Source of the DNA: Mycobacterium sp.
Lineage (GTDB): Bacteria > Actinomycetota > Actinomycetes > Mycobacteriales > Mycobacteriaceae
Assembly: GCA_025965975.1 (NCBI GenBank)
Contig: JAOPVX010000020.1
Location: 1-59,361, forward strand
Direction of reading: 5' to 3'
Length of the DNA: 59,361 nt
The notes beneath the pieces were generated by a model. The model saw only the letters and a list, made by a program, of their open reading frames with translations. It did not search any database and had not been told where the DNA came from. Below, piece by piece: positions 23,561 through 40,934 of this stretch (the stretch's first letter is position 1; each line of letters begins with the position of its first letter). The position numbers were made by a program, and so were the translations under genes.

Positions 23561-24413
23561 CGACCGCCATTCCCGTGATCCATTCGGGCACCGGCTCGTA
23601 GACGAGTGGAGTAACGGGCCTCCCGCCGCCTGCGGCGCCGGCGGCGACCCAGGTCCGGATCTCGTTCGCGCCTGCGCCGGCTTGCACGTGCGCTGAGTCA
23701 ACGAGGCGGGTGAGCGCCGCGGCGTCCCAGGTTGACATCGCCCGCAACACTTCGGCATCCCACTCCGGCCGTATCTTGTTGCGCGCGTCCGCCATCCCCG
23801 CGGCGATGATTCGCGCGCGTTCGTCGTCGCTGAGTTCGTAGGCGTCGACTTCCAGGCTCGGCGGCGAATGGGATAGTCCGCCAGTGCCGATCAGCAACAC
23901 GCGCTGATCCACCGCGTCGAGGAACCGCGCCACCGCGGCGCCGAAATCGGCGACTCGCCGACCGGTCGGCAGTGGCGCTGTCGCACAGTTCACCGCTACC
24001 GGAATGACCGGCTTGGCGTCCAACTCGCCCAACAGATCCCGAATCGGCTGTGCGAAAGCATGGTCCAGTCCGATGTCGCGACACACCGCGACGTCGAATC
24101 CCTCCGTAAGCAAGTGTTCGCACAGTCCACGAGCCAACGTCGACGGGACAGCGATGTCTCCGGCGGGACGGCGGCCTTCCGCGATGATCGACGCCGACAG
24201 TGCCACCCCGAATGTCGGCACCACAGTGGTGAATGCGCGACGGTGGTCACCGCCGAACACGATCACGATGTCGGGGTCGAAGCTGCCTACCTCATCCGCG
24301 GCCTGCGCCAAGGCCGTCCGGAACTTTCGGCCGAACACCTGCTCGACGTCGCGCTCCTTGCCGGGACTGTGGCTCGCACAGACGACCAGCCGACGAGGTG
24401 TCACGGAAGTCAT
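23529..24413 (-). CDS. Class III extradiol ring-cleavage dioxygenase (MhpB/LigB-like)
   Basis: 294 residues. It matches MhpB-type 2,3-dihydroxyphenylpropionate 1,2-dioxygenases along most of its length: CASHSPG near the start, VIVFGGDHRRAF, GLDHAFAQPI, GTGGLSHSPP and NEIRTWVAAGAAG towards the end. The histidines in HSP, DH, DHAF and LSHS fit the iron ligands and acid/base residues of the class. It would open a catechol-type ring next to the hydroxyls. It is encoded third after a P450 and its ferredoxin with 4-bp overlaps, so the P450 may provide a hydroxyl group on the ring substrate. Operon control is probably through the 26023 operator. Confidence 0.88.
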   Translation of the reverse strand: MTSVTPRRLVVCASHSPGKERDVEQVFGRKFRTALAQAADEVGSFDPDIVIVFGGDHRRAFTTVVPTFGVALSASIIAEGRRPAGDIAVPSTLARGLCEHLLTEGFDVAVCRDIGLDHAFAQPIRDLLGELDAKPVIPVAVNCATAPLPTGRRVADFGAAVARFLDAVDQRVLLIGTGGLSHSPPSLEVDAYELSDDERARIIAAGMADARNKIRPEWDAEVLRAMSTWDAAALTRLVDSAHVQAGAGANEIRTWVAAGAAGGGRPVTPLVYEPVPEWITGMAVATSGDRRTRA

Positions 24414-24616
24414 TCCGTCACGGATATCGCGCTCTCGGGGCAGTTCGCGGCGCCGGTGCGTGCCTCCTCGGCCTGCGCGGGCGGCACCTCACCTTCCCCG
24501 ATACCTTCCCCGATCACGTGGCCGTATCCCTGGTCGTCGTCCGCGAAGACGTTGGGCGCCAACGAGTAACACAGGCCGTGGCCCATGCATTTGGCGGAAT
24601 CGATCGTTGCTTTCAT
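24410..24616 (-). CDS. P450-associated ferredoxin with a His in the cluster motif
   Basis: 68 residues. The cluster motif is C-x2-H-x2-C (CMGHGLC, residues 10-16) with a distal CPES Cys near residue 60. The third-cysteine position is His, as in many mycobacterial 3Fe-4S or variant 4Fe-4S ferredoxins that reduce P450s. An acidic insertion (EGIGEGEVPPAQAEE) lengthens the middle. It overlaps the P450 upstream and the dioxygenase downstream by 4 bp each, so all three are probably made together. Confidence 0.92.
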   Translation of the reverse strand: MKATIDSAKCMGHGLCYSLAPNVFADDDQGYGHVIGEGIGEGEVPPAQAEEARTGAANCPESAISVTE

Positions 24617-25806
24617 GCGGGATCGTCGGCCTCGATCGTCAAGCGCAGGGTGTCAAGGCCGACCGTTCCCCGTGGCCAGTGCACCCGGGGCGCGGTGCCC
24701 GGCGTGATGTGATAATTCGGGATGAGCCTGTGCCATTCCTCGTAGAGCACCTGCATTTCCAGCCGCGCGAGGTGTGAGCCGAGGCAACGATGTACGCCCA
24801 TGCCAAAGCTGATGTGCCGATTCTCGGTGCGGTGGAAGTCGATCGCGTAGGGGTCGGAGAACAGCCGCTCGTCACGATTCGCCACGGCCAGGTAGCTGGT
24901 GATCCGGCTGCCTTCCGGCAGCGTGTGCCCGGCTACCGTCACCTCCTCGGTGTTCACCCGGGGGATGAACGGCGCAGGGGGATCCAGTCGGAGCAACTCC
25001 TCCATCGCGGCGGGAATGAGCGACGGGTCGGTCACGATTTCCCGGCGTCTCTCTGGGTTCTCGGCAAGGCGCTGCATCCCGAATCCAAGGGCATCCATCA
25101 CCGTGTCCAGACCGGCAAGTATGAAAAGGAAGCACAGGCCGATGACCTCTTCATCAGAAAGGGCATCGGGTGGTTCGATGTTGAGCACCTGACTGAGCAC
25201 GTCGTCTCCGGGGACACCGCGGCGCTTCTGGATGAGGTCGGTGAGGTACATGAAGAGTTCGAGCGCCTTCTGCATGCCTTCTTGTGCCGCTTCGTCAACC
25301 GATGTCTGGCCCGACGCGGCGCTGAGGCCAAGGACTGCGTTCTTCCACTCGATGAACTGGTCGCGCATGTCGAGCGGCAGTCCGAACAACGTGAGAAACA
25401 CCTGGATCGGGAACACGGCGGCGACCTCGGCGATGAAGTCGCATTCTCCGCGCTGCGCGATCGGCTCGATCAGCTCGACGACCTGCCTGCGCAGATCGGG
25501 CTCGAGGGGCTTGATCACGCGGGGACTGAAGAACGGCTGCAGGATGCGACGGTAGTGAGCCTGCTCGGGAGGGTCGAACGCGATGGGCACCAACGGGACT
25601 GGACTGGCGAGCACGTCGAACGCCCGCTTCGACGAGAACACCGATGGGTTCTTGAGGATGAGTTCCACCACATCTCGATGCGTGGCCGCGTAGCCGTCCT
25701 CCACTTCGACGACGGGGTGCTCGTCCATCTGGTGCCAAGCGTCGTCGCGGGCCTCCGGCATCGGCAGGTCGTCGGTGCAAACCTTGGGAAGTGCCTCGGT
25801 GGTCAA
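24613..25806 (-). CDS. Cytochrome P450
   Basis: 397 residues. The I-helix reads LAGLDTVMDALG (the usual acidic/Thr pair is partly altered), the K-helix MEELLRLDPP and the heme loop FGMGVHRCLGSHLARLE with Cys341. It is the first gene of a P450-ferredoxin-dioxygenase operon and closely resembles the P450 at 27896 (shared SPVPLVPIA motif, LAGLDTV helix), so the two look like paralogues under the same regulator. A hydrophobic cyclic substrate is likely. The 26023 operator is 217 bp upstream. Confidence 0.93.
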   Translation of the reverse strand: MTTEALPKVCTDDLPMPEARDDAWHQMDEHPVVEVEDGYAATHRDVVELILKNPSVFSSKRAFDVLASPVPLVPIAFDPPEQAHYRRILQPFFSPRVIKPLEPDLRRQVVELIEPIAQRGECDFIAEVAAVFPIQVFLTLFGLPLDMRDQFIEWKNAVLGLSAASGQTSVDEAAQEGMQKALELFMYLTDLIQKRRGVPGDDVLSQVLNIEPPDALSDEEVIGLCFLFILAGLDTVMDALGFGMQRLAENPERRREIVTDPSLIPAAMEELLRLDPPAPFIPRVNTEEVTVAGHTLPEGSRITSYLAVANRDERLFSDPYAIDFHRTENRHISFGMGVHRCLGSHLARLEMQVLYEEWHRLIPNYHITPGTAPRVHWPRGTVGLDTLRLTIEADDPA

Positions 25807-26022
25807 TCCCGTCCTCGATTCCTACTCCGTGCGCGGGCGTGCGAACTGTGACCGCGGTTACTCCTGGAAGTTTGCCACTACCGTCAGATATAGACAACAC
25901 CCTGGATTGTTGATCCGAGGCTCCTAACGTGCTGCATCGGGTTCTACCAGGGATATTGGTGCCATTTCACCGCCAGACATAATTAGACATTGCCGTCAGA
26001 CATCGCCGATCCGTTGACAGTC

Positions 26023-26038
26023 TGACAGTGAACTGCCA
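26023..26038. promoter_or_regulatory. TGRCAGT-NN-ACTGYCA operator, site 1
   Basis: TGACAGTGAACTGCCA has one TGACAGT half and one ACTGCCA half around a GA spacer. It lies 38 bp before the AveC-family gene and in the divergent promoter region of the P450 operon. The surrounding 270-bp intergenic stretch (25807-26076) also has three AGACAT repeats at about 25975-26011 and no gene. Confidence 0.65.
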
Positions 26039-26076
26039 TCTTTGGAGATCGTGAGAACGCCAAAGGGCGCGTCGTC

Positions 26077-27126
26077 GTGACAGACCTCAAGAGCACCGAC
26101 CGCGTCGACGGAGCGGGACCGTATTCACCCGTCCCCGCGGACATCAAAACCCTTCGGCCGGTTCTCTTTTGGTCGGGCGTTGGAACGGTCTGCGTAGCCT
26201 TCGCCACCTACGTCTATCTGTCGTGGATACTCTCGGGTAACGCCACGCCGGTCGACCCGGGACCCGACCCGATACCCGGCGTCACCCGCCTCGCGATGAC
26301 CGCCTTCCAAATCGCCTGTCCCGTCCTGGCTGTCGTTGCGATCGTCTACGTGATCCGAAAGAGCCTGCGCGAGCGCCGACTGTGCGTCGAGGCGGCGATC
26401 GTCATCGGCTCGGCGATCGCGTGGTGGCACGATCCGCTGATCAACTGGTTCCAACCCGTGCTCTTCTACAACGCCGGACTGGTCAACTTCGGGAACTGGA
26501 CCGAGAACATCCCGGGCTGGCTGAGCCCGGACGGACGTCTGATGGCCGAGCCGGTGCTGATGATCGGCATGATCTACATCTGGATGCCGCTGGCCATGGG
26601 GTCGCTGGCGCGGTGGGCGATGGGGAAGGCCCGCCACCGTTGGCCGACGCTGGGACCAGTCCGCACCTTCTGCAGCGGCTGGCTCGCCGTGTTCGTCGTC
26701 GAGTTCCCCCTCGAGGTCGTTGCGCTGCACAGCGGGCTGCTCGGCTATCCGGCGTCGATTCCAGAGCTGACGTTGTGGGTCGGGCGGACGGTGCAGTTGC
26801 CGTTGTACGGGCCGGTGCTGTGGTCATTGGTGTTGAGTTCCAGCGGTGCGCTGATGTTCTTCCGGAACAAGAAGGGACAGATCCGAGTCGAGACCGGCAT
26901 CGAAACGCTGCGCCGGGCGGGGACGAAAACGAAGGCTCTGCTGCGGGTGCTGGCTGTCACGGGTTTCCTGCATGTGGTGGCGATCGGGGTCTACGACATT
27001 CCGATCAACCTGGCAGGCATCTACGCCGGACCGACTCAGACTTATCCGACCTACCTGCGCACACAATTCTGCGGACCTGGCACGCCCCGGCCCTGCCCGG
27101 ACGGCACCCGCTTCGAAGACCCGTAG
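26077..27126 (+). CDS. AveC-family integral membrane protein (spirocyclase-like)
   Basis: 349 residues from a GTG. About seven hydrophobic segments are visible, starting with PVLFWSGVGTVCVAFATYVY after a soluble N-terminus. Conserved features of the family include WWHDPLINWF, FGNWTENIPGW, AEPVL and a C-terminal CGPGTPRPCPDG. AveC in avermectin producers is a spirocyclase/dehydratase. The many mycobacterial homologues have no proven reaction and often sit in terpenoid or steroid-type catabolic clusters. The operator 38 bp upstream places it in the same regulon as the P450s. A cyclisation or dehydration role is only a guess. Confidence 0.78.
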   Translation: MTDLKSTDRVDGAGPYSPVPADIKTLRPVLFWSGVGTVCVAFATYVYLSWILSGNATPVDPGPDPIPGVTRLAMTAFQIACPVLAVVAIVYVIRKSLRERRLCVEAAIVIGSAIAWWHDPLINWFQPVLFYNAGLVNFGNWTENIPGWLSPDGRLMAEPVLMIGMIYIWMPLAMGSLARWAMGKARHRWPTLGPVRTFCSGWLAVFVVEFPLEVVALHSGLLGYPASIPELTLWVGRTVQLPLYGPVLWSLVLSSSGALMFFRNKKGQIRVETGIETLRRAGTKTKALLRVLAVTGFLHVVAIGVYDIPINLAGIYAGPTQTYPTYLRTQFCGPGTPRPCPDGTRFEDP

Positions 27127-27137
27127 GCGTAGGCCTG

Positions 27138-27728
27138 CTACTTCAACACCGAAGGCAGCGCGGCGAACTCCTGCCGAATCAGATCGTCGAGCGCACGATT
27201 GGGGGCCGACAGCCATCGGATGATGGCGCGCTCGACCAGCAGCATTCCGATCGACGCCAGCAGCCGGCACTCATCATCCGGCGCCGCCAGTCGGCGCCGC
27301 TCGGCGATCACCTTCGCCACGGTGTCCGCATTGGCCCGGTGGTTCTGACGCTCACGGCCCTGCAGAACAAAGGACGAGTCGACCGCTTCGTGATACTGCG
27401 CGATCCGCTTGCGGATGCGTTTCAGGCCCGGCGCCAGTAACGCGAAGGAGTCAGCCATGGCTTCGTAGTCCGACAGCGCGTCGTCCTGGGCAAGGAAGAC
27501 GCCGCTGAACGCGTTGACGAAGCCGTACTCGCCGGAGAACAGAACCGATTCCTTGGTGGGGAAGTAGCGGAAGAACGTCCGCGGCGACACACCGGCGGCG
27601 TCAGCGATCTCGTCTGTCGTTGTCTGCTCATACCCGTTGGCGCTGAACAGATTCAGGGCGGCCTCCAGCAGCGCGGTCCGCATCTTGTTCGCATGTTCGC
27701 TCCGCGGCGAACGATCGCCCCGCGCCAT
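27138..27728 (-). CDS. TetR-family repressor, likely master of the TGRCAGT regulon
   Basis: 196 residues with the helix-turn-helix TTDEIADAAGVSPRTFFRYF at about residues 36-55 and a C-terminal helical domain. It is divergent from a P450 gene; the only palindrome in their shared promoter is the TGACAGT operator at 27833. Five similar sites lie before genes on both sides, and this is the only single-domain TetR gene inside the regulon next to such a site. I therefore infer that it binds them all. It ends 12 bp from the AveC-family gene, tail to tail. Confidence 0.87.
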   Translation of the reverse strand: MARGDRSPRSEHANKMRTALLEAALNLFSANGYEQTTTDEIADAAGVSPRTFFRYFPTKESVLFSGEYGFVNAFSGVFLAQDDALSDYEAMADSFALLAPGLKRIRKRIAQYHEAVDSSFVLQGRERQNHRANADTVAKVIAERRRLAAPDDECRLLASIGMLLVERAIIRWLSAPNRALDDLIRQEFAALPSVLK

Positions 27729-27832: not shown

Positions 27833-27848
27833 TGACAGTCTACTGTCA
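27833..27848. promoter_or_regulatory. TGRCAGT-NN-ACTGYCA operator, site 2
   Basis: TGACAGTCTACTGTCA is a perfect palindrome with 7-bp arms and a CT spacer. It lies 47 bp before the P450 start and about 105 bp before the TetR start, so it can serve both divergent genes. Confidence 0.7.
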
Positions 27849-27895
27849 TAGTTTGAGACCGCAATCGCCTGCGGCAGGAAAGGGATTTCCCGAAC

Positions 27896-29074
27896 ATGAC
27901 CGAAATCGCCTTGAACGGCACCGCGAACATCAATGACCTGCCCTTTGGGACGGATCGTTCACGCGCCTGGCGGGAGCTGCGCGAGGCGGGCGAGGCGGTG
28001 ACCTCCGGCGAGGAGATCGTCTTGACCAGTGCCTCGGCGGTCGAGTTCGCGGCGAAGAAGCCCGAAATCTTCTCCTCCGCGCGGGCCTTCGACCGACTGG
28101 GCAGCCCGGTTCCGCTCGTTCCGATTGCCATCGATCCGCCCGAACACACCCGGTTCCGTCGCATGCTTGATCCGTTCTTCAGCCCCAAGAAGATGGCCGA
28201 GCGAGAGCCGGAGTTGCGCAGGCAGGCCGGCGAACTGATCGACGCGATCGTGGCCAAGGGTGAATGCGACGTGGTTCCGGAACTTGCCACACCGTTTCCC
28301 TCCCAGGTCTTTTTGACGCTGTTCGGGCTGCCGATGGCCGACCGCGACAAGCTGGTGCAGTGGAAGGACTCGATCCTGGAGTTCACCGACCCGAGTAGCG
28401 CTGAAGCGACGCCAGAGGTTCTCGCCCACGCATTGGAACTGTTCACCTATCTGACCGAACACATAGCCGAGCGGCGCGCCAACACCACGGGCGGCGACAT
28501 GCTCACTCAGCTGATGCAAAACAGCGAGGACGGCGGAATGTCCGACAACGAGATCCTCGGGCTGTGTTTCATGTTCGTGCTCGCCGGTCTCGATACCGTC
28601 ACCTCTGCGGTGGGATTCTCGCTGGCGAAACTCGCAGGCGATGCCGATCTGCGTCACCGCATCAGCAACGACTACGGCCTGATTCCGGTTTTCATCGATG
28701 ACATGCTGCGTGTCGACGGCCCAGTCCCGTTCGCCCCGCGGGTCACCACCGAGGAGGTCGAAGTCGCGGGCAGGGTGGTGCCGAAGGATTCAACGGTCAT
28801 GCTCGCCTATGGCAGCGCCGATCGCGACCCGCGGCGCTACCAGGACGCCGACAACGTCCATTTGGACAGCAAGGCGGTGCATTTCGCGTTCGGGCGTGGC
28901 CCGCACAGGTGCCTGGGCTCGCATCTCGCGCGCCTGGAGCTGCGGCTCATTCTCGAGGAGTGGCACACGCGCATCCCCGACTACACCTTGGCAGACGGCA
29001 AGGCACCGCAGATGCCCTGGCCCGCGGGAACGATGGGACTCGAGTCGGTCCCGCTGACCTTCAAGCCGCGATAG
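27896..29074 (+). CDS. Cytochrome P450
   Basis: 392 residues from an ATG preceded by AGGAAAGGGA. The I-helix is LAGLDTVTSAVG, and the heme loop FGRGPHRCLGSHLARLE puts the axial Cys at residue 339. It is a soluble class I P450 and a near relative of the 24613 protein. No ferredoxin adjoins it, so it may share the one encoded at 24410. A perfect regulon operator is 47 bp upstream. Confidence 0.93.
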   Translation: MTEIALNGTANINDLPFGTDRSRAWRELREAGEAVTSGEEIVLTSASAVEFAAKKPEIFSSARAFDRLGSPVPLVPIAIDPPEHTRFRRMLDPFFSPKKMAEREPELRRQAGELIDAIVAKGECDVVPELATPFPSQVFLTLFGLPMADRDKLVQWKDSILEFTDPSSAEATPEVLAHALELFTYLTEHIAERRANTTGGDMLTQLMQNSEDGGMSDNEILGLCFMFVLAGLDTVTSAVGFSLAKLAGDADLRHRISNDYGLIPVFIDDMLRVDGPVPFAPRVTTEEVEVAGRVVPKDSTVMLAYGSADRDPRRYQDADNVHLDSKAVHFAFGRGPHRCLGSHLARLELRLILEEWHTRIPDYTLADGKAPQMPWPAGTMGLESVPLTFKPR

Positions 29075-29083: not shown

Positions 29084-30004
29084 CTACCGCACTTTCGGGA
29101 TCACCTCTTCGGCGACCCAGGCCATGTGGTCTAAGTAGGCGTTGAAGTTATCGAGCGGTGGCGGGTTGACCCAGGTGTCGGTGACGCCGCACTCGGCCAG
29201 CATGCTGCAGTTGTCGATCACCCGCTGTGCGCTCTGGCCGAATTGTGCGCGTGGGTCGTCGACGATCGCATGCTCCTGGCCGATCGACAGCATGGCGAGG
29301 CTATAGAACACCGAGAACGGGCGGCCATCGAACCCGGGCGCCGACCGGAGATAGTCCATCTTCGCAGGCAGCTCGTTGGGCTTGGTCAGCCAAGGCGCCC
29401 AGCCGTCACCGAATCGCGCGGCACGTCGAAGAACGGCGTCGGCGTCGCCGCCCATCCAGATGACGGGATGCGGTTTGTGAATCGGCTTGGGGCCGAAGGC
29501 GATGTCGTCGAATTTCACGAACTCGCCGTCGAAACTCGGTGTGTCGCTGTGCCACAGCTCGAACATCGCGGCCAGTGACTCGTCGGCGATGCGGCCGCGT
29601 TTGGAGAAGGGCACGCCGATCGCGTCGTACTCCTCCTTGAGCCAACCCACGCCGACCGTGACCTGAGCGCGGCCGCCGCTGAGCCAGTCCAGTGTTGCGA
29701 TGGATTTGGCCGCGATGACCGGATTGTGCAGGGGCAGGATCGTCACCATCGAACCGATGGTGATCGTCGAGGTCGCGCCGGCGAGGAACGCCTGTGCCGT
29801 GGTGGCGTCGAAGTAGTGGTTGCCGGACAGCTCGAGGTGGCTGGTCGGCGTCAGGTAGTGCTCCGGCAGGAACACCATTGCATATCCGAGGCGTTCGGCG
29901 GTCTGGGCGGTAAGCGCGATGTCCTGACCGGTCAGGCCCTGCTCCCACGGTTGGGTGATCGCTGCGACGTGCATGCAGTTGGGCAGGTATACAGCGAATC
30001 TCAT
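29084..30004 (-). CDS. LLM-class (F420-dependent-type) oxidoreductase
   Basis: 306 residues from ATG 30004; the longer frame begins inside the operator and is rejected. The TIM-barrel luciferase-like pattern is clear: MRFAVYLPN start, VFLPEHYL, GVGWLKEEYDAIGV and WMGGDADAVLRRAARFGDGW. In mycobacteria such enzymes usually use F420 for hydride transfer to or from carbonyls or double bonds. It is convergent with the P450 (10-bp gap) and divergent from the EthD-like operon. The 30048 operator lies 43 bp upstream. Confidence 0.9.
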   Translation of the reverse strand: MRFAVYLPNCMHVAAITQPWEQGLTGQDIALTAQTAERLGYAMVFLPEHYLTPTSHLELSGNHYFDATTAQAFLAGATSTITIGSMVTILPLHNPVIAAKSIATLDWLSGGRAQVTVGVGWLKEEYDAIGVPFSKRGRIADESLAAMFELWHSDTPSFDGEFVKFDDIAFGPKPIHKPHPVIWMGGDADAVLRRAARFGDGWAPWLTKPNELPAKMDYLRSAPGFDGRPFSVFYSLAMLSIGQEHAIVDDPRAQFGQSAQRVIDNCSMLAECGVTDTWVNPPPLDNFNAYLDHMAWVAEEVIPKVR

Positions 30005-30047: not shown

Positions 30048-30063
30048 TGGCAGTGAACTGCCA
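30048..30063. promoter_or_regulatory. TGRCAGT-NN-ACTGYCA operator, site 3
   Basis: TGGCAGTGAACTGCCA is a perfect palindrome with 7-bp arms and a GA spacer. It is the GC variant of the motif. It faces the LLM oxidoreductase gene and is 48 bp, centre to centre, from site 4. Confidence 0.65.
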
Positions 30064-30095: not shown

Positions 30096-30111
30096 TGACA
30101 GTCAACTGTCA
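30096..30111. promoter_or_regulatory. TGRCAGT-NN-ACTGYCA operator, site 4
   Basis: TGACAGTCAACTGTCA is a perfect palindrome with 7-bp arms and a CA spacer, 44 bp before the EthD-like gene. An extra partial half-site, TTGACTGTGACAG, leads into it. It should control the operon running to about 35.7 kb. Confidence 0.7.
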
Positions 30112-30155
30112 TAGTGTCACTGGTAGCACCGGCCGACGTGAAAGGTGTGTCTCCC

Positions 30156-30521
30156 ATGGCCCAAGACATCTTCGTTGTGTTGACCAACCCGATCGAGGGC
30201 GAGGACGAGGCGTTCAACACGTGGTACGACGCGCAGCATGTGCCCGAGGTCCTCGACGTACCCGGGGTGGTCGCGGCACAGCGCTACGACATCGCGGAGG
30301 TGAACGTCCCCGACGATCAGGACCTGCCCGCACAGTTGCCGCCGCCGACACACCGCTACATGGTCATCTACGAGCTGGACAACGACCCCGACGTAGTGAT
30401 GGCCGAATTCCTCAAGCGCGTCATGGCGGGCACGCTGTCGTTGGGCGAATGGCTGGATCTGAGCACGATCTCGTTGACGGGATGGACTCCCCGCGGCGAC
30501 CGTGTGGTGGCGGGGTCATAG
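30156..30521 (+). CDS. EthD/dimeric alpha-beta-barrel-like protein
   Basis: 121 residues from ATG 30156. The pattern FVVLTNPIEGEDEAFNTWYDAQHVPEVLDVPGV is typical of ferredoxin-like dimeric alpha-beta-barrel proteins with the WYDxxH motif (EthD/DUF4286 group). These are found beside P450 and ring-modifying genes; some act as accessory or isomerase-type proteins. It is the first gene of the operon behind operator site 4. Its TAG stop shares a base with the GTG of the nitroreductase gene. The function is not established. Confidence 0.75.
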   Translation: MAQDIFVVLTNPIEGEDEAFNTWYDAQHVPEVLDVPGVVAAQRYDIAEVNVPDDQDLPAQLPPPTHRYMVIYELDNDPDVVMAEFLKRVMAGTLSLGEWLDLSTISLTGWTPRGDRVVAGS

Positions 30522-31129
30522 TGGGCGAACTGCTGGCCGTCATGCACGCCCAGCGTGCCTGTCGGCGATTCGACCCTGACGGCAAGGTTTTGGACGGCGA
30601 CCTCGAGCGCATGCTCGAGGCCGCGGTCCACGCCCCGAGCGCCGAGAACACCCAGCCGTGGTCGTTCGTCGTGGTGCGCAACGAGGAGGCACGGGCGCAG
30701 CTGGCCGACTGGTGGACCGAGACATGGAACGCTGGCGGCGGTGATTTCGTGCGGCAGAGCCTCGATGACAAGGTGCTGGTGGCCGACCTCGAATACGGTT
30801 TCAACCGAGGGGGATTCGCTGCGGCGCCGGTGGTAGTCGTGGTCTGCGCCGACACCGAACGGGTGCCGGAGATCTACGCACCGTCCTCGATCTATCCCGC
30901 GGTGCAGAATCTACTGCTCGCCGCGGCCGACCTTGGTTACGCCTCCTGCTTGACGACCGGGCTCACCACCTTCGGGGTCGACCGGGTCCGCGAGAAACTG
31001 CAGCTGCCCGACACGTTGTTGCCCATGGCCGCGGTATACCTCGGCAGGTCGGCCAGGAAGCTGTCGCCGTCCCGTCGTCGTCCTGCCCCCACGGTGACGT
31101 ACCGCGAACAATTCGGCAACCCCTGGTGA
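30521..31129 (+). CDS. Nitroreductase-family FMN oxidoreductase
   Basis: 202 residues from a GTG overlapping the previous stop by one base; an internal ATG seven codons on is possible. FMN-binding features are the early RACRRFDPDG, the APSAENTQPWSFVVVR strand and SIYPAVQNLLLAAADLGY. Family enzymes use NAD(P)H to reduce nitro groups, quinones or activated double bonds. A ring or enone reduction would suit this operon. Confidence 0.88.
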   Translation: MGELLAVMHAQRACRRFDPDGKVLDGDLERMLEAAVHAPSAENTQPWSFVVVRNEEARAQLADWWTETWNAGGGDFVRQSLDDKVLVADLEYGFNRGGFAAAPVVVVVCADTERVPEIYAPSSIYPAVQNLLLAAADLGYASCLTTGLTTFGVDRVREKLQLPDTLLPMAAVYLGRSARKLSPSRRRPAPTVTYREQFGNPW

Positions 31130-33322: not shown

Positions 33323-34459
33323 ATGACCTGTGCCGTAGTGGGAATCGGCCGCACGACGTACTCGCGGAACTCCGGCCGGACCACTCGCGGCATGGCGGTG
33401 GCCGCGTGCAGGGACGCGATCGCCGACGCCGGACTCACCTCCGCCGACATCGATGGCATCTGCACCTACATGGCTAACGACTCCGAGCAGCCCATCAACG
33501 TCGGATGGGCGCTGGGGATCGACGAATTGGCTTGGGCCAACGCCATGTACGGCGGCGGAAACCTCGTTGCCGATCAGATCGCCACGGCGGCCGCCGTCAT
33601 CGAGGCGGGCATGTGCAGGGCGGTGCTGGTGTACCGGTCCCTCAACGGCCGCTCCGGGCACCGCTTCGGCCACGTCGAGGGACCGATGCAGGTTGGGAAC
33701 CACGACCAATTCGACGCCGCGTCGGGGTTCTTGGTTCCCCCACAGTGGATCGCCATGTGGGCGCGTCGGCATCAGCACGAGTACGGCTCAACATGTGAAG
33801 ACCTGGGTCAGATCGCCATCACGCAGCGAGCCCACGCGGCGCCGAACGAGCACGCCCTGCGCCGTGAGGCGCTGAGCATGGATGAGTACCTGGCGGCGCG
33901 CTGGATCAATGAGCCGTTCCGGGTGCTGGACTGCACGTCGGAGGTGGACGGTGCGGTGGCCATCCTGATCACCGGGGAGGACATGGCCCGCGACTGCAAG
34001 CAGCCGCCGACGTGGTTGGTCGGATCGTCGAACTCCCAGGGCGGTTCCGGATGGACCGAGTGGGACGACCCGACCGAGATGTTCTCGCGCACCGCCGGTC
34101 CGAAGATCTGGGAGAACACCGGGCTGACACCGGCCGATATGGACGTGGCGTGCATGTACGACTGCTTCACGTACACCGTGATGGCGACCATGGAGGGGTT
34201 CGGCTTCTGCGAGAAGGGCGAAGTGGGGAAGTTCTTCTCGACGGGGCGTGCCACGTACGGCGGCGACGTGGTGGTCAATCCACATGGCGGCCTGCTGTCC
34301 GAGGGGTACATCCACGGGCTGAACCATCACTACGAGGCGGCGCTGCAACTGCGCCACGCGGCGGGGGTCCGCCAGGTCGATGACGCGCAACTGGCACTCG
34401 TCACCGCGGGTGCGGGTCCTTACGGCGGCGCCAACGTATACAGCAGGGAGAAGCCATGA
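33323..34459 (+). CDS. Thiolase-fold lipid-transfer-type protein (Ltp-like)
   Basis: 378 residues from ATG 33323, 14 bp after the dehydrogenase stop. It has ACMYDCFTYTVM in place of the thiolase NEAF motif and NPHGGLLSEGY near residue 320, matching the Ltp2-type retro-aldolase branch. The partner DUF35 gene overlaps its stop by 4 bp. It would cleave the chain after dehydrogenation and hydration, although no hydratase is in this operon; the MaoC pair at 21.3-22.2 kb could supply it. Confidence 0.82.
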   Translation: MTCAVVGIGRTTYSRNSGRTTRGMAVAACRDAIADAGLTSADIDGICTYMANDSEQPINVGWALGIDELAWANAMYGGGNLVADQIATAAAVIEAGMCRAVLVYRSLNGRSGHRFGHVEGPMQVGNHDQFDAASGFLVPPQWIAMWARRHQHEYGSTCEDLGQIAITQRAHAAPNEHALRREALSMDEYLAARWINEPFRVLDCTSEVDGAVAILITGEDMARDCKQPPTWLVGSSNSQGGSGWTEWDDPTEMFSRTAGPKIWENTGLTPADMDVACMYDCFTYTVMATMEGFGFCEKGEVGKFFSTGRATYGGDVVVNPHGGLLSEGYIHGLNHHYEAALQLRHAAGVRQVDDAQLALVTAGAGPYGGANVYSREKP

Positions 34460-34875
34460 CCAACTCGGTACTGCTGCCTCCAGTTCCGGTCCCCGATCCC
34501 GACACGGCGCCGTACTGGGAAGGATTGAAGAACGGCAAATTGATGCTGAGCCGCTGCGACGACACCGGCAGGTGGATACACCCGCCGCTCGAGCGCAGCC
34601 GGTTCACCGGCGGCCCCGTGCATTTCGAGGAGGTCAGCGGCGAGGGAGCGATCTACAGCTACATCGTTGTGCGGCAGGCGTTGGTGCCGGGGCGGATGCC
34701 GCCGTTCGTCATTGCCCTGGTCGAACTGGCCGAGCAGCCGGGGCTGCGGATCAGCGCCGTCATCGACGCCGACCCCGCGGATGTTCGCATCGGCCAGCGC
34801 GTGGAACTCCGCATCGTCGACCTGGGCGAAAGCGGTTACCGGATCCCCGAATTCGTCATCAAGTATCCGGCTTAG
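34456..34875 (+). CDS. DUF35 OB-fold protein with a degenerate zinc ribbon
   Basis: 139 residues. The OB-fold is normal (SGEGAIYSYIVVRQA onward). The ribbon region reads RCDDTGRWIHPPLERSRF and keeps only one of the four expected cysteines, so zinc is probably not bound. It overlaps the stop of the Ltp-like gene (ATGA), and pairing with it is very likely. The other three DUF35 proteins of the window have intact ribbons. Confidence 0.83.
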   Translation: MTNSVLLPPVPVPDPDTAPYWEGLKNGKLMLSRCDDTGRWIHPPLERSRFTGGPVHFEEVSGEGAIYSYIVVRQALVPGRMPPFVIALVELAEQPGLRISAVIDADPADVRIGQRVELRIVDLGESGYRIPEFVIKYPA

Positions 34876-34884: not shown

Positions 34885-35709
34885 ATGGGCAGAATGGACG
34901 GCCGCGTCGCCTTCATCACCGGAGCGGCGCGGGGACAAGGGCGGTCGCACGCGGTCCGATTGGCCGAGGAGGGCGCCGACATCGTCGGCGTGGACATCTG
35001 CCGCCAGCTCGACGGCGTGCTCTATTCCCTGGCCACGCCCGAGGACCTAGACGAGACGGTGAACCTGGTCGAGAAGACCGGCAGGCGGATGGTCGGGCGC
35101 CACGCCGACGTCCGTGATCGCAAGGCATTGGCCGCCGCGTTCGCCGACGGTGTCGCCGAGTTCGGGCACATCGATACCGTCGTCGCCAATGCGGGCATCC
35201 TGCTGAACCGTGTCGACGAACCCGACCCGGAGGCGGCGTGGGAACTCGGGATCGGCGTGATGCTCACCGGAGTCTGGAACACCATGCAGATCGCCACCGA
35301 CCACATGATCGAGGCGGGTCACGGCGGGGCGATCATCGTGACCAGCTCGATGGCCGGCCTGCGGGCGCTCACCGACGGCACCGGCGGATCCGATGCCTAC
35401 GCCGCCGCCAAGATCGGCGTCACCGGCCTGGTCCGCGCCTACGCGCAACGGTTGGCACCCAACAACATTCGCGTCAACGCGATTGCGCCTACCGGGGTGG
35501 CGACAACGATGATCGTCGACAACCCTGCGTTGTTCGAAGTGATCGAGAAGCACGCGCACCTGGCCAGTGCCTTCAAGAACTCCCTGCCGGTTCAGCTCAT
35601 CGAACCGGGAGATGTCAGCGAGACGGTGTTGTTCCTCGCCGCCAACGACAGCGGGCGGTACTACACCGGCAGCACGCTGATGGTCGACGCAGGCATGAAC
35701 ATCGCCTGA
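34885..35709 (+). CDS. Short-chain dehydrogenase, mycofactocin-coupled type
   Basis: 274 residues. TGAARGQGRSHAVRLAEEGAD at the N-terminus, the characteristic insertion with LATPEDLDETVNLVE, and YAAAKIGVTGL at the active site make it a close relative of the 3925 protein, one in each catabolic island. It would oxidise a secondary alcohol and pass electrons to mycofactocin. It is the last gene of the operon that starts at 30156. Confidence 0.86.
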   Translation: MGRMDGRVAFITGAARGQGRSHAVRLAEEGADIVGVDICRQLDGVLYSLATPEDLDETVNLVEKTGRRMVGRHADVRDRKALAAAFADGVAEFGHIDTVVANAGILLNRVDEPDPEAAWELGIGVMLTGVWNTMQIATDHMIEAGHGGAIIVTSSMAGLRALTDGTGGSDAYAAAKIGVTGLVRAYAQRLAPNNIRVNAIAPTGVATTMIVDNPALFEVIEKHAHLASAFKNSLPVQLIEPGDVSETVLFLAANDSGRYYTGSTLMVDAGMNIA

Positions 35710-35716
35710 TTGTTCT

Positions 35717-35739
35717 TTAGTCAATCAATGGTTGACTAA
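35717..35739. promoter_or_regulatory. Operator TTAGTCAA-N7-TTGACTAA
   Basis: A perfect inverted repeat with 8-bp arms lies between the SDR stop and the next gene, 65 bp before its ATG. It differs from the TGRCAGT operator. The operon it precedes ends with its own TetR gene (37419), the obvious candidate ligand-responsive repressor. Confidence 0.65.
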
Positions 35740-35804
35740 CGCGGTCGGGAGTGGTTACTGTGACCGTCGTCTCACCCGCTCACGGCCAAGCCAGGGGAGT
35801 TCGC

Positions 35805-36536
35805 ATGCACGTCAAGATCGAAAAGGCGGCCGCGTGGCTCGGGCTGGCGATGGTGGGCGGGTTTCTGGTGATGTTCTGGTTCATCGCCGGCCTCATCCCG
35901 CCGATGAACCCCAGCGACAGCGCCCAGCAGACCGCGCAGATCTACGTCGACAAAGACTGGCGCATCCGCATCGGACTTGCCCTGATGATCCTGTTCGCAT
36001 GGCTTTTCGCGCCGTTCTTCGCGCTGCTGTCCCGCCAAGTTCGACGGATCGAGGGCTACTGGGGTGTCATGTCGCTCACCCAGGTGATGTTGAGCGTGAC
36101 ATTCCCGTTCGGGTTCTCACTGTGCGCACTGTTCGCCGTCGCCGCCGCGTACCGCCCCGAGCGCAACCCCGACGTGACACAGGCGCTCAACGACATGTTC
36201 TGGTTCATCTTCGTCGGACTGGTCGGCCCGCTCATCACGCAGGTGGTCATCCTCGCTTTCTGTGTCTTCATCGACAAGCGAGAGGTGCCGAGCTTCCCGC
36301 GCTGGTTCGGCTACTTCAACATCTGGTACGCGATCCTCGGAGTGCCTGGATGTGCGATCTATCTGTTCAAGACCGGCCCCCTGGCGTGGAACGGGCTGTT
36401 CGCCTTCTGGATTCCGCTGACGGTGTTCACGATCTGGATGATTGTGACGACGGTGATGCTCGTCAAGGCGGTCGATGTCGAGGCCGCCGAACGCGAAGCG
36501 AATGCCGCCGAGCGCGTGTGGGAACCGGCGGCGTGA
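35805..36536 (+). CDS. Integral membrane protein of unknown function
   Basis: 243 residues from ATG 35805, preceded by AGGGGAG. Six or so hydrophobic segments are visible, for example LGLAMVGGFLVMFWFIAGL near the start and FAFWIPLTVFTIWMIVTTVM near the end. A loop DSAQQTAQIYVDKDWRIRIG lies after the first. I know similar proteins only as conserved actinobacterial membrane proteins. Its position before orphan oxidase subunits III and IV suggests a role in a membrane redox complex. The stop overlaps the next start. Confidence 0.7.
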   Translation: MHVKIEKAAAWLGLAMVGGFLVMFWFIAGLIPPMNPSDSAQQTAQIYVDKDWRIRIGLALMILFAWLFAPFFALLSRQVRRIEGYWGVMSLTQVMLSVTFPFGFSLCALFAVAAAYRPERNPDVTQALNDMFWFIFVGLVGPLITQVVILAFCVFIDKREVPSFPRWFGYFNIWYAILGVPGCAIYLFKTGPLAWNGLFAFWIPLTVFTIWMIVTTVMLVKAVDVEAAEREANAAERVWEPAA

Positions 36537-37150
36537 GTCAGGCGGCCGCCCGGCTGGCCGCCAAACCGGGCCGGGCACCGCAGGGCAACTCGGGCGATCG
36601 CCACGTTCCCGGCGAGCCGGGAGTGTGGATCCTCCTGTTCGGCGACATGCTCGTGTTCGGCGTGTTTTTCGCGACGTTCATGTACCAGCGGTCGCTGGCG
36701 CCCGTGCTGTTCGACGAGTCACGCCAGACACTGAGTATCGGTATCGGCCTTGCGAATACGTTGATCCTGCTGACGAGTTCGCTGTTCGTCGTCACGGCGA
36801 TCCGCGCCATCCGCCCTTCACAACGTCTGGCGGCCCGATGGCTTCTGGTCGGCGCGCTTGCGTGCGGGCTGGCGTTCGTCGGCCTCAAGGTCGTCGAATA
36901 CACCGCCAAGGTCAACGAGGGCCACACTCCCAACCAGAACGCCTTCTACCTGTACTACTTCATCCTCACCGGCCTGCACCTGTTCCACGTATTCATCGGA
37001 ATCGTCGTCCTGGTCCTGCTTTTGACTCAGGCGGGCAAACCTGACCTCAGTGTCAACAGGATGGCCTTCGTCGAGGGCGGCGCATGTTTCTGGCACCTCG
37101 TTGACCTGCTCTGGATCGTCTTGTTCCCGCTCCTCTACCTGGTGAGTTGA
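36533..37150 (+). CDS. Heme-copper oxidase subunit III-like protein (NorE/CtaE type)
   Basis: 205 residues from a GTG that overlaps the upstream stop. About five membrane segments and the motifs WILLFGDMLVFGVFF, LTGLHLFHVFIGI and FWHLVDLLWIVLF are those of oxidase subunit III/NorE proteins. No catalytic subunit I or CuA subunit is encoded nearby. It may attach to a housekeeping oxidase or take part in a dedicated electron-transfer complex for this island. Confidence 0.87.
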   Translation: MSQAAARLAAKPGRAPQGNSGDRHVPGEPGVWILLFGDMLVFGVFFATFMYQRSLAPVLFDESRQTLSIGIGLANTLILLTSSLFVVTAIRAIRPSQRLAARWLLVGALACGLAFVGLKVVEYTAKVNEGHTPNQNAFYLYYFILTGLHLFHVFIGIVVLVLLLTQAGKPDLSVNRMAFVEGGACFWHLVDLLWIVLFPLLYLVS

Positions 37151-37152
37151 CC

Positions 37153-37419
37153 ATGACGCTTTCGCTATTTCGTGCGCGATCCACGGTGGTGTGGGTCGTT
37201 CTCATCGTCGCCACCATCGTGTCGTGGGCGGTGGGCTCCGAGCATGGGACCGGCTCGGCCATCGCCGTCGTCGTCCTGGGGGTCGCCGTGTTCAAGGTCC
37301 GCTACGTCGGCCTCGACTTCATGGAGCTTAGGCAGGCGCCGCTGCTGCTACGCGGAATGTTCGAGTGTTACTGCGTCGTGCTGTGGTGCGTGCTGGCCGG
37401 CATGTATCTGTGGCTGTGA
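37153..37419 (+). CDS. Prokaryotic cytochrome c oxidase subunit IV-like protein
   Basis: 88 residues from ATG 37153; a TTG two codons upstream overlaps the previous stop and is also possible. Three hydrophobic segments around FKVRYVGLDFMELRQAP match the small COX4-type subunit found next to NorE/subunit III proteins. Its TGA stop overlaps the ATG of the TetR gene. Confidence 0.78.
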   Translation: MTLSLFRARSTVVWVVLIVATIVSWAVGSEHGTGSAIAVVVLGVAVFKVRYVGLDFMELRQAPLLLRGMFECYCVVLWCVLAGMYLWL

Positions 37420-38048
37420 TGACGGCACGCGAGGGCAAGCGGGTCCGGCGTGGCAGTGCCCCGGGATTGATTCACGAGGCTGCCAGGGAGGTCTTCGCCG
37501 AACAGGGATACGGTGCCACGACGCGCGAGATCGCCTCGCGCGCCGGGGTATCGCACGATCTGATCTTTCGCTACTTCGACAGCAAGGAGAAGCTGTTCTT
37601 CGACGCCGTCGTCACCCCACTGCTGGACGCCGTCGACGAGATGCACCAAGGGTGGCTCGACCACCCGAACCTGCGAACCATGAGTGCCGACCAGCTGGTC
37701 GGGCGGTTCACCGCCGGCTTCTACGAATTCATGTCGACGAATCAATCCATTGCTCGTGCGATGGTGCACCTGTTCGCCGGAGGCTCCACCGAAGGGGAAC
37801 TCGAGCGGCTGCGTGAACGCATCAGTGAGACGTTGGCGCCCATGATCGCGCCCGTCGATGCCTATCTCACGAGTGAAGGGCTGCGACACTCGTCGCCGGC
37901 ATTGCAGCTACGTCTGATGATGTTGTTCGTCGGTGTGGCGGCCACCTTCCTGCGGAGCACCTACCGCACCGATGACGACGTACCCGGTTCCGAGGAGATC
38001 GTCGACGAGTTGTCCCGCTTCATGTCAAACGGACTGCGCGACAGCTAA
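37419..38048 (+). CDS. TetR-family repressor of the oxidase-subunit operon
   Basis: 209 residues from the ATG overlapping the previous stop (TGATG). The helix-turn-helix is TTREIASRAGVSHDLIFRYF at about residues 33-52. As the last gene of the operon behind the TTAGTCAA palindrome it is likely autoregulated. The inducer is unknown. Confidence 0.87.
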   Translation: MTAREGKRVRRGSAPGLIHEAAREVFAEQGYGATTREIASRAGVSHDLIFRYFDSKEKLFFDAVVTPLLDAVDEMHQGWLDHPNLRTMSADQLVGRFTAGFYEFMSTNQSIARAMVHLFAGGSTEGELERLRERISETLAPMIAPVDAYLTSEGLRHSSPALQLRLMMLFVGVAATFLRSTYRTDDDVPGSEEIVDELSRFMSNGLRDS

Positions 38049-38062
38049 ACAGCGGCCGTGGC

Positions 38063-39181
38063 TTAGCGCAACAGCGTGTCGGTGCCGAGGTCCGAATAGG
38101 CCTCGGCAAACCGTCCCATGACGGCGCTCACGACCTCGACCGAATACATCTGCTCCGGCGCGATGGCCCACATGCAGAATCCCCATGCCGGGCTCTGCCG
38201 GTATGCGGTCCACATCTGCTCGCGGTCGGGCGCCGACGCGACACCGGTGTCGAGCAGTCGGCCGCGGTAGTCGTCAAGGAGTTCACGTTCATGGTCGCGG
38301 CGATCGTCGGGGGGTAGTGCAGCGATCAGCGCGTAGCCGACGTCGTGCGACCACGAACCGCGCCGAATCAATTGCCAGTCAAGGACACCCATGCGGCCGT
38401 CGGGCAGCATGTAGGTGTTGCGCGGATGTGGATCGCCGTGCAACACGGTGATCGGTTCGCGCGACACCCGCTCCTGCAGGCTCCAGAATGACGCTTCGAT
38501 CCCGTCCATGTCGGTGCCGGTGGCATCGAGTAATGCCGTCTTGTAAGGCGCCTCGACGAGCGTGCGGATGATCGCGAAGCCGTTGGCACGCAGGAACTCT
38601 GCGAACCCGCCCGTGACCGGATGCTGGAGCCAGGACAGGTCGCCGCCGTCATCCAGTCGCGGGCTGCCCCAGTACGCGGAGTGCACCCGGCCCAACGTTG
38701 TCAACAACTCATCGACCTGCTCGACCGAAAGGCCCTCCACCGCATCGGGAACCTCCGCTCCGCGCAGCGTGATGTCCTCACCGAGGATGAGAAACTGCGC
38801 AGGACCGTCCAGATGGTCGGCGAAATAGGTCGTCATGGTCTCAACGTCGAGGTCCGCGCGGAGGTCGCGGTAGAACCTCGTCTCGTCGTCGTACAGCACC
38901 GTCCCGCCGCCACCTTCGGACAGCGAGACATCGAATTCCTCCGGCAGGTCGTGCACCGTGCTCAACTGAGTCTTGACGAAGAGCCGCCGCGGCAGTGCGG
39001 TGTCAGGGTCGGCATAGTCGACATCGAGGTGCAGGTGCGAGGTGGTGCCCTGCCAGGTGCGGCGCACCGTGACACCGGTGACGGTCGCGCCCGGGTCGTG
39101 GCGGCGAAGCAACGACGTCAACACCTCGGGCGTCACGTCGTCGGCGGAGCGCAGCGGAACGGGCAGGGCTTGGCTGGTCAT
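38063..39181 (-). CDS. APH/choline-kinase-type phosphotransferase
   Basis: 372 residues from ATG 39181; the longer frame would run to the edge of the operator. The kinase catalytic loop LHGDPHPRN and the metal-binding LDWQ (in place of DFG) are present, with the nucleotide-binding strand RRLFVKTQL earlier. Family members phosphorylate small alcohols, sugars, antibiotics or, in some actinobacterial catabolic clusters, hydroxyl groups of lipids. Operator site 5 lies 30 bp upstream. It is convergent with the oxidase-operon TetR gene. Confidence 0.88.
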   Translation of the reverse strand: MTSQALPVPLRSADDVTPEVLTSLLRRHDPGATVTGVTVRRTWQGTTSHLHLDVDYADPDTALPRRLFVKTQLSTVHDLPEEFDVSLSEGGGGTVLYDDETRFYRDLRADLDVETMTTYFADHLDGPAQFLILGEDITLRGAEVPDAVEGLSVEQVDELLTTLGRVHSAYWGSPRLDDGGDLSWLQHPVTGGFAEFLRANGFAIIRTLVEAPYKTALLDATGTDMDGIEASFWSLQERVSREPITVLHGDPHPRNTYMLPDGRMGVLDWQLIRRGSWSHDVGYALIAALPPDDRRDHERELLDDYRGRLLDTGVASAPDREQMWTAYRQSPAWGFCMWAIAPEQMYSVEVVSAVMGRFAEAYSDLGTDTLLR

Positions 39182-39211
39182 GTGTGCATCCTCGTCGACG
39201 AATTCCAATTA

Positions 39212-39227
39212 TGACAGTCGACTGTCA
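39212..39227. promoter_or_regulatory. TGRCAGT-NN-ACTGYCA operator, site 5
   Basis: TGACAGTCGACTGTCA is a fully symmetric palindrome with 7-bp arms and a CG spacer, 30 bp before the phosphotransferase gene. It is identical to sites 2 and 4 outside the spacer. Confidence 0.7.
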
Positions 39228-39258
39228 CACTATCAGCGATACGTGCCGGATTGTCCTG

Positions 39259-39714: not shown

Positions 39715-39717
39715 GAG

Positions 39718-40533
39718 CTAGGTCTCCTGCCAGTTACAGCCGGTCAGTTCCGCGGATACGTCCCAAAGTCTGCGAGCGCTTTCCGGATCGCGCGCTATGG
39801 CGACGAGCTTTGTCGGTTTCGGTTTACCCCACTGGTGCAGCGGCCCACGGGGCGCTATGTAGGTCCCACTGGGAAGCCCGGTGGTGACCGCTTGAATGCT
39901 CGACCGTGCACCATCGGCCGGGCTCTGGGCGATGCGAGGCGACAGCGCGCGGCCTGCCCACTGCAACAGACCGGAACCGTCGCGGGTGATGTCGGTCGCC
40001 GTCATCCCGGGATCGGACGCGTACGCGGCCCGACCGCGCCGGGCCAGCTCCTGCACGAAGAGCATGTTCGCCAGCTTGGACTCGCCGTACGCAGACCACG
40101 GGTGGTAGCGGCGCCGGTGCCAGTTCAGGTCATCGAAGTGAATGCGGGCGAGCGCGTAGTTGCTGCTGGCCACGACGACGATCCGGTCGCGGATCCGGTC
40201 ACCGAGCAGGCATGTCAGGGCGAAATGGCCGAGGTGATTGGTGCCCATGTGGGCCTCGAAACCGTCGGCGGTCCGGGTCAGCGGCAGACCGAGAATGCCT
40301 GCGTTGTTGACCAGGACATCGACGTAGTCCACCGACTCGGCGAACTTGCGGACGCTGGCCAGGTCAGCGAGGTCCAATTCGGCCACCTCGATGTTGCCGC
40401 TCATCGATGCGGCGGCTTGATGTGCCTTGCTCAGTGTTCGGCACGCGATCACCACATCGTGGCCCGAGGAGGCCAGCGCCGTCGCCGTCGCCCTACCCAC
40501 CCCGCTGTTTCCGCCCGTGACGATGATCCGCAC
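39718..40533 (-). CDS. Short-chain dehydrogenase (retinol dehydrogenase-like)
   Basis: 271 residues from GTG 40533, chosen because AAAGGAGG lies about 10 bp upstream; two upstream ATGs are inside a 15-bp direct repeat. TGGNSGVGRAT, NNAGILGLP, HLGHFALT and the active site YGESKLAN are those of retinol/protochlorophyllide-type SDRs, which act on hydrophobic alcohols and ketones. Operator site 6 is 50 bp upstream. The DUF35 gene follows. Confidence 0.86.
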   Translation of the reverse strand: MRIIVTGGNSGVGRATATALASSGHDVVIACRTLSKAHQAAASMSGNIEVAELDLADLASVRKFAESVDYVDVLVNNAGILGLPLTRTADGFEAHMGTNHLGHFALTCLLGDRIRDRIVVVASSNYALARIHFDDLNWHRRRYHPWSAYGESKLANMLFVQELARRGRAAYASDPGMTATDITRDGSGLLQWAGRALSPRIAQSPADGARSSIQAVTTGLPSGTYIAPRGPLHQWGKPKPTKLVAIARDPESARRLWDVSAELTGCNWQET

Positions 40534-40550
40534 GCCCGTCCGGCCTCCTT

Positions 40551-40580
40551 TTGGTGTCTGACGCATTGGCGTCTGACGCA
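40551..40580. repeat. Two 15-bp direct repeats
   Basis: TTGGTGTCTGACGCA (40551-40565) is followed at once by TTGGCGTCTGACGCA (40566-40580), one mismatch. The pair sits between the SDR ribosome site and operator site 6. It creates the false N-terminal repeat MRQTPMRQTP in the longer frame. Confidence 0.75.
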
Positions 40581-40583
40581 CTC

Positions 40584-40599
40584 AAACAGTAAACTGTTT
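40584..40599. promoter_or_regulatory. Divergent ACAGT-NN-ACTGT palindrome, operator site 6
   Basis: AAACAGTAAACTGTTT is a perfect palindrome with 7-bp arms. The inner ACAGT-NN-ACTGT core equals the other sites while the outer bases differ (AA/TT in place of TG/CA). It lies 50 bp before the SDR start, at the same distance as the other sites. Confidence 0.5.
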
Positions 40600-40934
40600 A
40601 TCGCTTTGGTCGAAATATGTTAGGGGTATGTTGGCGACGCCGAGGGATGTGCTGGGATCTCGTCCGTGTCGCAAAGCCAATGGGCCTACTTCGACAGGCA
40701 ACCACCAGCCGCCCTCTGGGCAAATGCTCACCAATTCCAGATGGGATGCTGTCCGACCAGGTCAGCTGGGTTTGTGAAGCGGGATTACTATCCGCCCAGC
40801 AAGCTCCTGAGCCGGATATGGCGGCGCGACAAGCCGCAGCCGCTGATTATGGCCCGGCTCTAGGCACGTACTTTGGACCCGACGAGCGTGCACACACAAG
40901 CCAACCAAGCCCGAAGTGCCACAGAGGAGCAAAC
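40600..40934. other. Intergenic stretch before the Mce-associated genes
   Basis: About 335 bp without a gene. The reading frame of the next gene stays open upstream to 40617, but the extension (Cys/Trp/Arg-rich, no homology pattern) lacks a good start. The clear GAGGAGC site before 40935 argues against it. No palindrome or repeat was noticed here. Confidence 0.5.

Follow-up and report, generated by a model that had tools for sequence, protein, structure and literature searches.

The cholesterol regulons of KstR and KstR2 each have a TetR repressor and palindromes at P450, FadE, Ltp and DUF35 operons, and their operators differ from the palindrome described here, TGRCAGTNNACTGYCA (TGRCAGT-NN-ACTGYCA). 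This palindrome is found in a 59,361-base stretch of DNA from Mycobacterium sp. (assembly GCA_025965975.1, contig JAOPVX010000020.1, positions 1–59,361; termed the window). Five of its copies are proposed, with a probability of about 0.8 and from comparison of sequences, to serve as operators for a dimeric repressor of the TetR family. The most probable candidate for this repressor is the protein encoded at 27138–27728 (the 27138 TetR).

Two other described systems are close to this one. BkaR (Rv2506) is an autoregulated TetR protein with a 16-bp-core palindrome at its own and at neighbouring catabolic promoters (PMC3920632). MftR, the mycofactocin TetR repressor (M. smegmatis MSMEG_1420, Rv0691c), answers to long-chain acyl-CoAs and has the published operator core T-N2-GGCA-N5-TGCC-N2-A (PMC8728441).

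Palindrome copies in the window and genome

The window displays exact matches to the pattern at 26023, 27833, 30048, 30096 and 39212 (Table 1). The whole assembly of 7,437,493 bases holds these five exact matches only, all of them inside 13.2 kb of the window. If the window is modelled as an order-4 Markov sequence, 0.0003 exact matches are expected in a window and 0.036 in a genome. A preliminary description of this DNA, which listed six copies of the palindrome, named a random spread of hits over the genome as a finding that would refute it; the exact matches are not so spread. The arms are fully complementary at four of the five sites and the 26023 site is a hybrid (TGACAGT/ACTGCCA), as had been described.

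The distance from the end of the site to the start codon is 38 bp for an AveC-like gene, 47 bp for a P450 gene (P450b), 43 bp for an LLM oxidoreductase, 44 bp for a gene of 121 amino acids that heads an operon, and 30 bp for a kinase. Of six sites said to lie 30–50 bp before start codons, five are retained, at 30–47 bp. The sixth (at 40584, termed site 6) is four mismatches off the consensus and is not retained.

Degenerate matches carry little information. At up to two mismatches the genome has 55 matches to the motif and 52 to a reversed-pattern control, thus sites with more than one mismatch are not informative. At up to three mismatches the window has 11 matches against 5.3 expected, and four of 100 shuffles reach 11. 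The other one-mismatch sites of the genome, on contigs C106 (3440), C218 (2628) and C376 (3834), are inside mechanically listed open reading frames of at least 150 amino acids, and those on C56 belong to a different TetR/P450 unit. The motif could in principle be a chance or compositional repeat with no regulatory role, and the counts at two and three mismatches, being near the control, agree with this. The number and clustering of the exact matches, together with the conservation and operon-head placement shown below, contradict it and make this reading hardly credible.

The operator shape was examined in 111 distinct site contexts with at most one mismatch (88 exact), taken from the window and loci L017–L072 except L051 and L052; a few sites of other regulators are included. 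The bases TG-CAGT and ACTG-CA are near-invariant, the 2-bp spacer is free, and the third position of each arm is mostly A/G paired with C/T. When 62 sites are oriented to their genes, the flanks show T at −2 (51 sites), A/G at −1 (58), T at +1 (53), A at +2 (41) and T at +4 (57), in sequences that are related and not independent. These flanks extend the palindrome to a 20-mer, TRTGRCAGTNNACTGYCAYA, which four of the five sites in the window match in full; every other position in the genome has at least two mismatches to it.

The 30096 operator fills the 17-bp spacer between TTGACT and TAGTGT exactly, and TTGACA is seen by eye just upstream in the five AveC promoters inspected. As the 30096 operator is within a −35/−10 spacer, the promoter geometry suggests repression and not activation.

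Co-occurrence of the sites with the 27138 TetR

The 27138 TetR has a TetR_N helix-turn-helix (PF00440, 63.2 bits), which places it in the TetR family, and its C-terminus matches PF17754 (28.4 bits, cut-off 22.7). In a sample of 148 same-genus genomes, part of a larger genus, 13 including its own have a match at E ≤ 1e-40, and orthologues are present in 18 named Mycobacterium loci (L033–L050). The helix-turn-helix and the N-terminal arm are near-invariant across 20 orthologues. An order-wide search of 298 genomes at E ≤ 1e-30 yielded two, its own and one of the same genus (G101), and a plasmid collection gave no match at 1e-20. Two loci of other genera (L051 and L052) show weak TetR matches and are without the site. 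Within the genomes sampled, the 27138-type TetR is confined to Mycobacterium.

At least three exact sites are present in 12 of the 13 TetR-positive genomes and in none of the 135 TetR-negative ones (Fisher p = 9e-17). The TetR-positive genomes hold 72 exact sites in total, against 28 in 25 of the 135 TetR-negative genomes. In 44 partly overlapping loci (L009–L052), 78 exact, 28 one-mismatch and five two-mismatch sites were found, compared with 0, 0 and 5 for the reversed control. Of the TetR proteins compared, it is the 27138 TetR that tracks the sites.

Placement was counted in 34 sources (the window, L033–L050, L053–L066 and L072), using distinct upstream sequences and sites with at most two mismatches within 200 bp. 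A site is found before 74 of 76 operon heads: AveC 15/15, P450b 16/18, LLM 15/15, the 121-amino-acid gene 17/17 and the kinase 11/11. None of 60 upstreams of operon-internal genes has one, i.e. the nitroreductase-family gene NitR (0/13), the acyl-CoA dehydrogenase FadE (0/18), Ltp (0/16) and the DUF35 gene of the same operon, DUF35a (0/13). For the SDR gene that ends the operon (SDRa), a non-exact site at 184 bp is seen in one of six. In the two loci where P450b has no site (L037 and L040), the gene comes after DUF35a and is encoded on the same strand as the 121-amino-acid/FadE/Ltp operon. The window and the 18 loci chosen by TetR alone give 52/54 for heads and 0/33 for internal genes.

The nearest site is 31–41 bp from AveC, 39–61 bp from P450b and 26–33 bp from the kinase; the LLM site of the window is at 43 bp, and those of relatives are at 80–86 bp. 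Gene starts in some of the relatives' loci are rough, having come from simple calling of open reading frames.

A site also precedes the TetR gene itself in 17 of 18 distinct upstreams. It is kept at 94–102 bp in loci where P450b is not the neighbour (L027, L032, and L037/L039/L040), and in L026 and L031 the TetR gene follows LLM, whose promoter carries the site. A short palindrome is found at the promoters taken to be regulated, including the regulator's own, as in a TetR regulon. Co-occurrence, operon-head positions and retention of the site with the TetR gene support well the proposal, made in the preliminary description, of a single regulon under the 27138 TetR.

Several observations weigh against this reading. 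Genome G098, the one TetR-positive exception, has a TetR that is 67% identical and holds one exact site, with one one-mismatch and three two-mismatch sites around the TetR gene. In L066 the sequence just before the TetR gene is without a site. Close relatives contribute many of the loci, and the pairs L045/L046, L047/L048 and L049/L050 are nearly identical. Loci L053–L066 and L072, in which heads score 32/32, favour positives because they were fetched around known sites. The 20-mer flanks of the AveC site have two mismatches, and the −35/−10 match is read by eye from examples. The site, the TetR gene and the target genes travel as one cluster, thus co-occurrence alone cannot assign the binder. 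In addition, the genome encodes a TetR of a different clade whose operator has almost the same core, thus the regulator is not identified by the motif alone.

The last point leads to another possible binder. In the C56-type unit (contig C56 of the window's genome, L005:5637–7580; also L060, L068 and L070), a TetR (L005:6954–7580, with an SbtR-like C-terminus) divergent to a P450 gene is located beside an operator of the ACTGACAGTTGACTGCCA type. This operator has a TGACAGT-NN-ACTGNCA core, and some tens of bases from it is another copy that is more degenerate. The P450 promoter on C56 carries AGACAGTCAGCTGCCA and TGACAGTCAACTGTCG, in L060, L068 and L070 the orthologous TetR of this type is accompanied by TGACAGTTGACTGCCA, and by eye the recognition helices of both TetRs share an RT-x-(F/Y)-R pattern. 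Such a single-chain TetR might be the main binder at the sites, or several TetRs might share them. The C56 TetR type, however, is also present in genomes negative for the 27138 TetR (G007 and G125), with one or two exact sites only. Its sites have C at −1 and A at −2, as opposed to R and T at the regulon sites, and those on C56 are absent among 20-mer matches at up to three mismatches. This alternative is considered unlikely, and possible cross-talk with the C56-type TetR is a caveat to the assignment.

Of the 28 exact matches in TetR-negative genomes, four were inspected (L068–L071). Those of L068 and L070 adjoin a C56-type TetR, and that of L069 a gene with the appearance of a TetR. In L071 (G055:C1:1664500–1669500) an exact TGACAGTCGACTGTCA stands directly before a gene that by eye is enoyl-CoA-hydratase-like, and adjoins SDR (57%) and P450 (50%) homologues; the best TetR match of G055 has only E = 4e-16.

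Genes of the proposed regulon and neighbouring elements

With the 27138 TetR as repressor, the dimer would bind the extended palindrome at the promoters of P450b (and of the TetR gene itself), AveC, LLM, the 121-amino-acid/NitR/FadE/Ltp/DUF35/SDR operon and the kinase, and would block RNA polymerase until a compound of the pathway releases it. We infer the binding, repression rather than activation, and the existence of an effector. The MftR-type C-terminal domain leads, by analogy, to the guess that a CoA thioester may be the effector, long-chain acyl-CoAs being the compounds to which MftR responds.

Table 1. Predicted operators and annotated features of the window
Feature	Positions	Strand	Location	Remarks
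Predicted operator TGACAGTGAACTGCCA	26023–26038		before AveC-like gene	exact match; 2 mismatches to 20-mer
Predicted operator TGACAGTCTACTGTCA	27833–27848		between TetR and P450b	exact match; 20-mer perfect
Predicted operator TGGCAGTGAACTGCCA	30048–30063		before LLM oxidoreductase	exact match; 20-mer perfect
Predicted operator TGACAGTCAACTGTCA	30096–30111		before 121-amino-acid/NitR/FadE/Ltp/DUF35/SDR operon	exact match; 20-mer perfect
Predicted operator TGACAGTCGACTGTCA	39212–39227		before EcKL/APH-like kinase	exact match; 20-mer perfect
TetR-family regulator, MftR-like C-terminal domain; proposed regulon repressor	27138–27728	−		PF00440, PF17754
AveC-like protein, probable regulon member	26077–27126	+		PF17198, 132.8 bits
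Cytochrome P450 (P450b), probable regulon member	27896–29074	+		PF00067; best PDB 8ckn/8amo, nearest solved chains CYP143
F420-type LLM oxidoreductase, probable regulon member	29084–30004	−		TIGR03619, 209.2 bits (cut-off 166.9)
121-amino-acid protein, first gene of operon	30156–30521	+		gene order conserved
Nitroreductase-family protein (NitR)	30521–31129	+		PF00881, 105.5 bits
Double-length acyl-CoA dehydrogenase, two ACAD modules (FadE)	31158–33308	+		PF00441, two stretches; best PDB 6wy9/6wy8
Ltp/thiolase-like lipid-transfer protein	33323–34459	+		PF22691; best PDB 6ok1
ChsH2-type DUF35 (OB and Zn ribbon) protein (DUF35a)	34456–34875	+		PF01796, PF12172
Mycofactocin-coupled SDR (SDRa)	34885–35709	+		TIGR03971, 348.8 bits (cut-off 300)
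EcKL/APH-like phosphotransferase (kinase), probable regulon member	38063–39181	−		PF01636, 38.3 bits; PF02958, 36.6 bits
P450a-ferredoxin-LigB operon	23529–25806	−		membership undecided; own conserved element at 25871–25888
Site 6, AAACAGTAAACTGTTT (AAACAGT-AA-ACTGTTT)	40584–40599		upstream of SDRb	not supported as regulon operator

The 121-amino-acid protein (30150–30521) gave no Pfam match at 0.001 and no PDB match at E = 1. The same sites are also upstream of other genes in some relatives, namely those of a CoA ligase, a PEP-utilising protein and a DUF7065 protein. The PEP-utilising protein has no match at 1e-10 in the genome of the window, an empty result that shows little, the assembly being 93.4% complete.

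Ltp together with DUF35 carries out retro-aldol cleavage of an acyl-CoA side chain in sterol catabolism. By analogy, the Ltp and DUF35 pair in this operon suggests such a cleavage. The proposed pathway would use hydroxylation by a P450, dehydrogenation of CoA esters and a retro-aldol cleavage of the Ltp/DUF35 type. As a group, the regulated enzymes point to a hydrophobic, branched or polycyclic acid as the compound broken down.

The preliminary description had also linked a P450-ferredoxin-dioxygenase operon and an SDR/DUF35 pair to the regulon. P450b, AveC, LLM, the FadE/Ltp/DUF35/SDR operon and the kinase are kept as probable members, the pair SDRb/DUF35b is not, and the P450a-ferredoxin-LigB operon is left undecided.

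Site 6, the basis for including SDRb/DUF35b, is a perfect palindrome, but its four mismatches are at positions 1–2 and 15–16, which are almost invariant elsewhere. An element AAANNGTTTACNGTTT (window 40584–40612) is kept upstream of SDRb in four of five other loci (L053, L056, L062 and L038), and L058 is without it. Its copies have one or two of the seven arm pairs broken and five to seven mismatches to the consensus. This looks like part of another conserved element than the regulon operator. As site 6 is off the consensus and AAANNGTTTACNGTTT is what is conserved, site 6 is not supported as a regulon operator, nor is the link to the SDR/DUF35 pair; a regulon site is upstream of SDRb in 0/6 and of DUF35b in 0/7 distinct upstreams. 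A weak site for the 27138 TetR at this place is conceivable.

The sole link of the P450a, ferredoxin and LigB genes to the regulon is an intergenic region shared with the AveC site, 217 bp away. P450a has no site within 200 bp in three upstreams (window, L033 and L034), and LigB has one at 138–143 bp in two of 11. At the same place in these three P450a upstreams TCTGACRGTNNTGGCANA is conserved. A similar TCTGACAGTATTGGTCAC at 21272 is located before a MaoC pair adjoining a tandem TetR gene, and recurs in L043. From these sequences a second regulator of the P450a operon is plausible.

The asymmetric TCTGACRGTNNTGG element is found at window positions 21272–21289 (+) and 25871–25888 (−) and in relatives at L033:11828, L034:13045 and L043:18655. 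A relaxed pattern of this type gives five matches at up to three mismatches against 4.7 expected, the named sites being the matches with zero and one mismatch. The tandem TetR (22220–23560, +) is one Mce3R-like protein of 446 amino acids with two TetR_N stretches, and has 78–83% identity in 11 relatives' loci. Judging from the sequence context, TCTGACRGTNNTGG is possibly its operator.

A membrane protein/Cox3-like/TetR group is located at 35717–38048 between SDRa and the kinase. It carries a separate inverted repeat of 11 bp (TTAGTCAATCA/TGGTTGACTAA) at 35717–35739. The group is absent from the SDRa-kinase junction in all six relatives' loci that hold both genes (L043, L047–L050 and L057), where the kinase directly follows SDRa. 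It looks like an inserted, separately regulated unit.

The tandem TetR or the TetR of the Cox3-like group (37419–38048) might regulate the palindrome, since both are in the same island and the former is well kept in relatives. Mce3R, a tandem TetR, however binds a non-palindromic 25-bp site (PMC11667970), and L037, L039 and L040 keep the site and the 27138 TetR without the tandem TetR in the stretch examined. The TetR at 37419 is not supported as the regulator, as it is missing at the SDRa-kinase junction in the six relatives' loci and its group has the separate inverted repeat. Control of the palindromes by either protein is thus very unlikely.

A tentative and rather doubtful extension is that an undescribed mycobacterial catabolic pathway has two interlocking TetR-type controls, the palindrome TetR and the Mce3R-like tandem TetR, the latter acting on TCTGACRGTNNTGG before the P450a-ferredoxin-LigB operon and the MaoC pair. 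If this were the case, it would offer a way to approach what CYP143-type P450s do. The pathway would combine CYP143-like P450s, F420 and mycofactocin enzymes, an EcKL-type kinase, a PEP-utilising enzyme (in relatives) and retro-aldol cleavage.

Comparison with described regulons

The regulon is undescribed in the open-access literature searched, the TetR motif logos of one survey (PMC4482099) lying outside it. Its description would provide a clean operator and regulon for a TetR found only in Mycobacterium among the genomes sampled. It would also group a CYP143-like P450, an AveC-like protein, an F420 LLM, a mycofactocin SDR and an EcKL-type kinase into one co-regulated pathway. The occurrence of one operator core in at least two TetR clades of a genome suggests a warning for regulon prediction from motifs only.

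The system would appear to work like the BkaR, KstR or MftR regulons, i.e. an ordinary mechanism in a previously undescribed regulon. Identity with any of the three was rejected from the model scores (MftR, KstR) and the operators (MftR, BkaR). MftR shares with the 27138 TetR a TetR_N domain and an MftR-type C-terminal domain (PF17754 above cut-off), and a mycofactocin-coupled SDR is part of the present regulon. However, the 27138 TetR scores 71.0 bits with the MftR model (TIGR03968, cut-off 224.9), and the MftR operator (PMC8728441) differs from TGRCAGT-NN-ACTGYCA. BkaR similarly has a palindrome that recurs at its own promoter and at catabolic promoters nearby, but its operator, GTTA(N)T(N4)A(N)TAAC (PMC3920632), is unrelated and its genes are others. 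The KstR model (NF033703) gives only 25.7 bits, cut-off 280, and the exact sites described here are limited to one island. The C56-type SbtR-like TetR/P450 unit has a nearly identical operator core, and differs in its TetR clade (PF21597 C-terminus, 27.4 bits, cut-off 27), its flanks and its genes.

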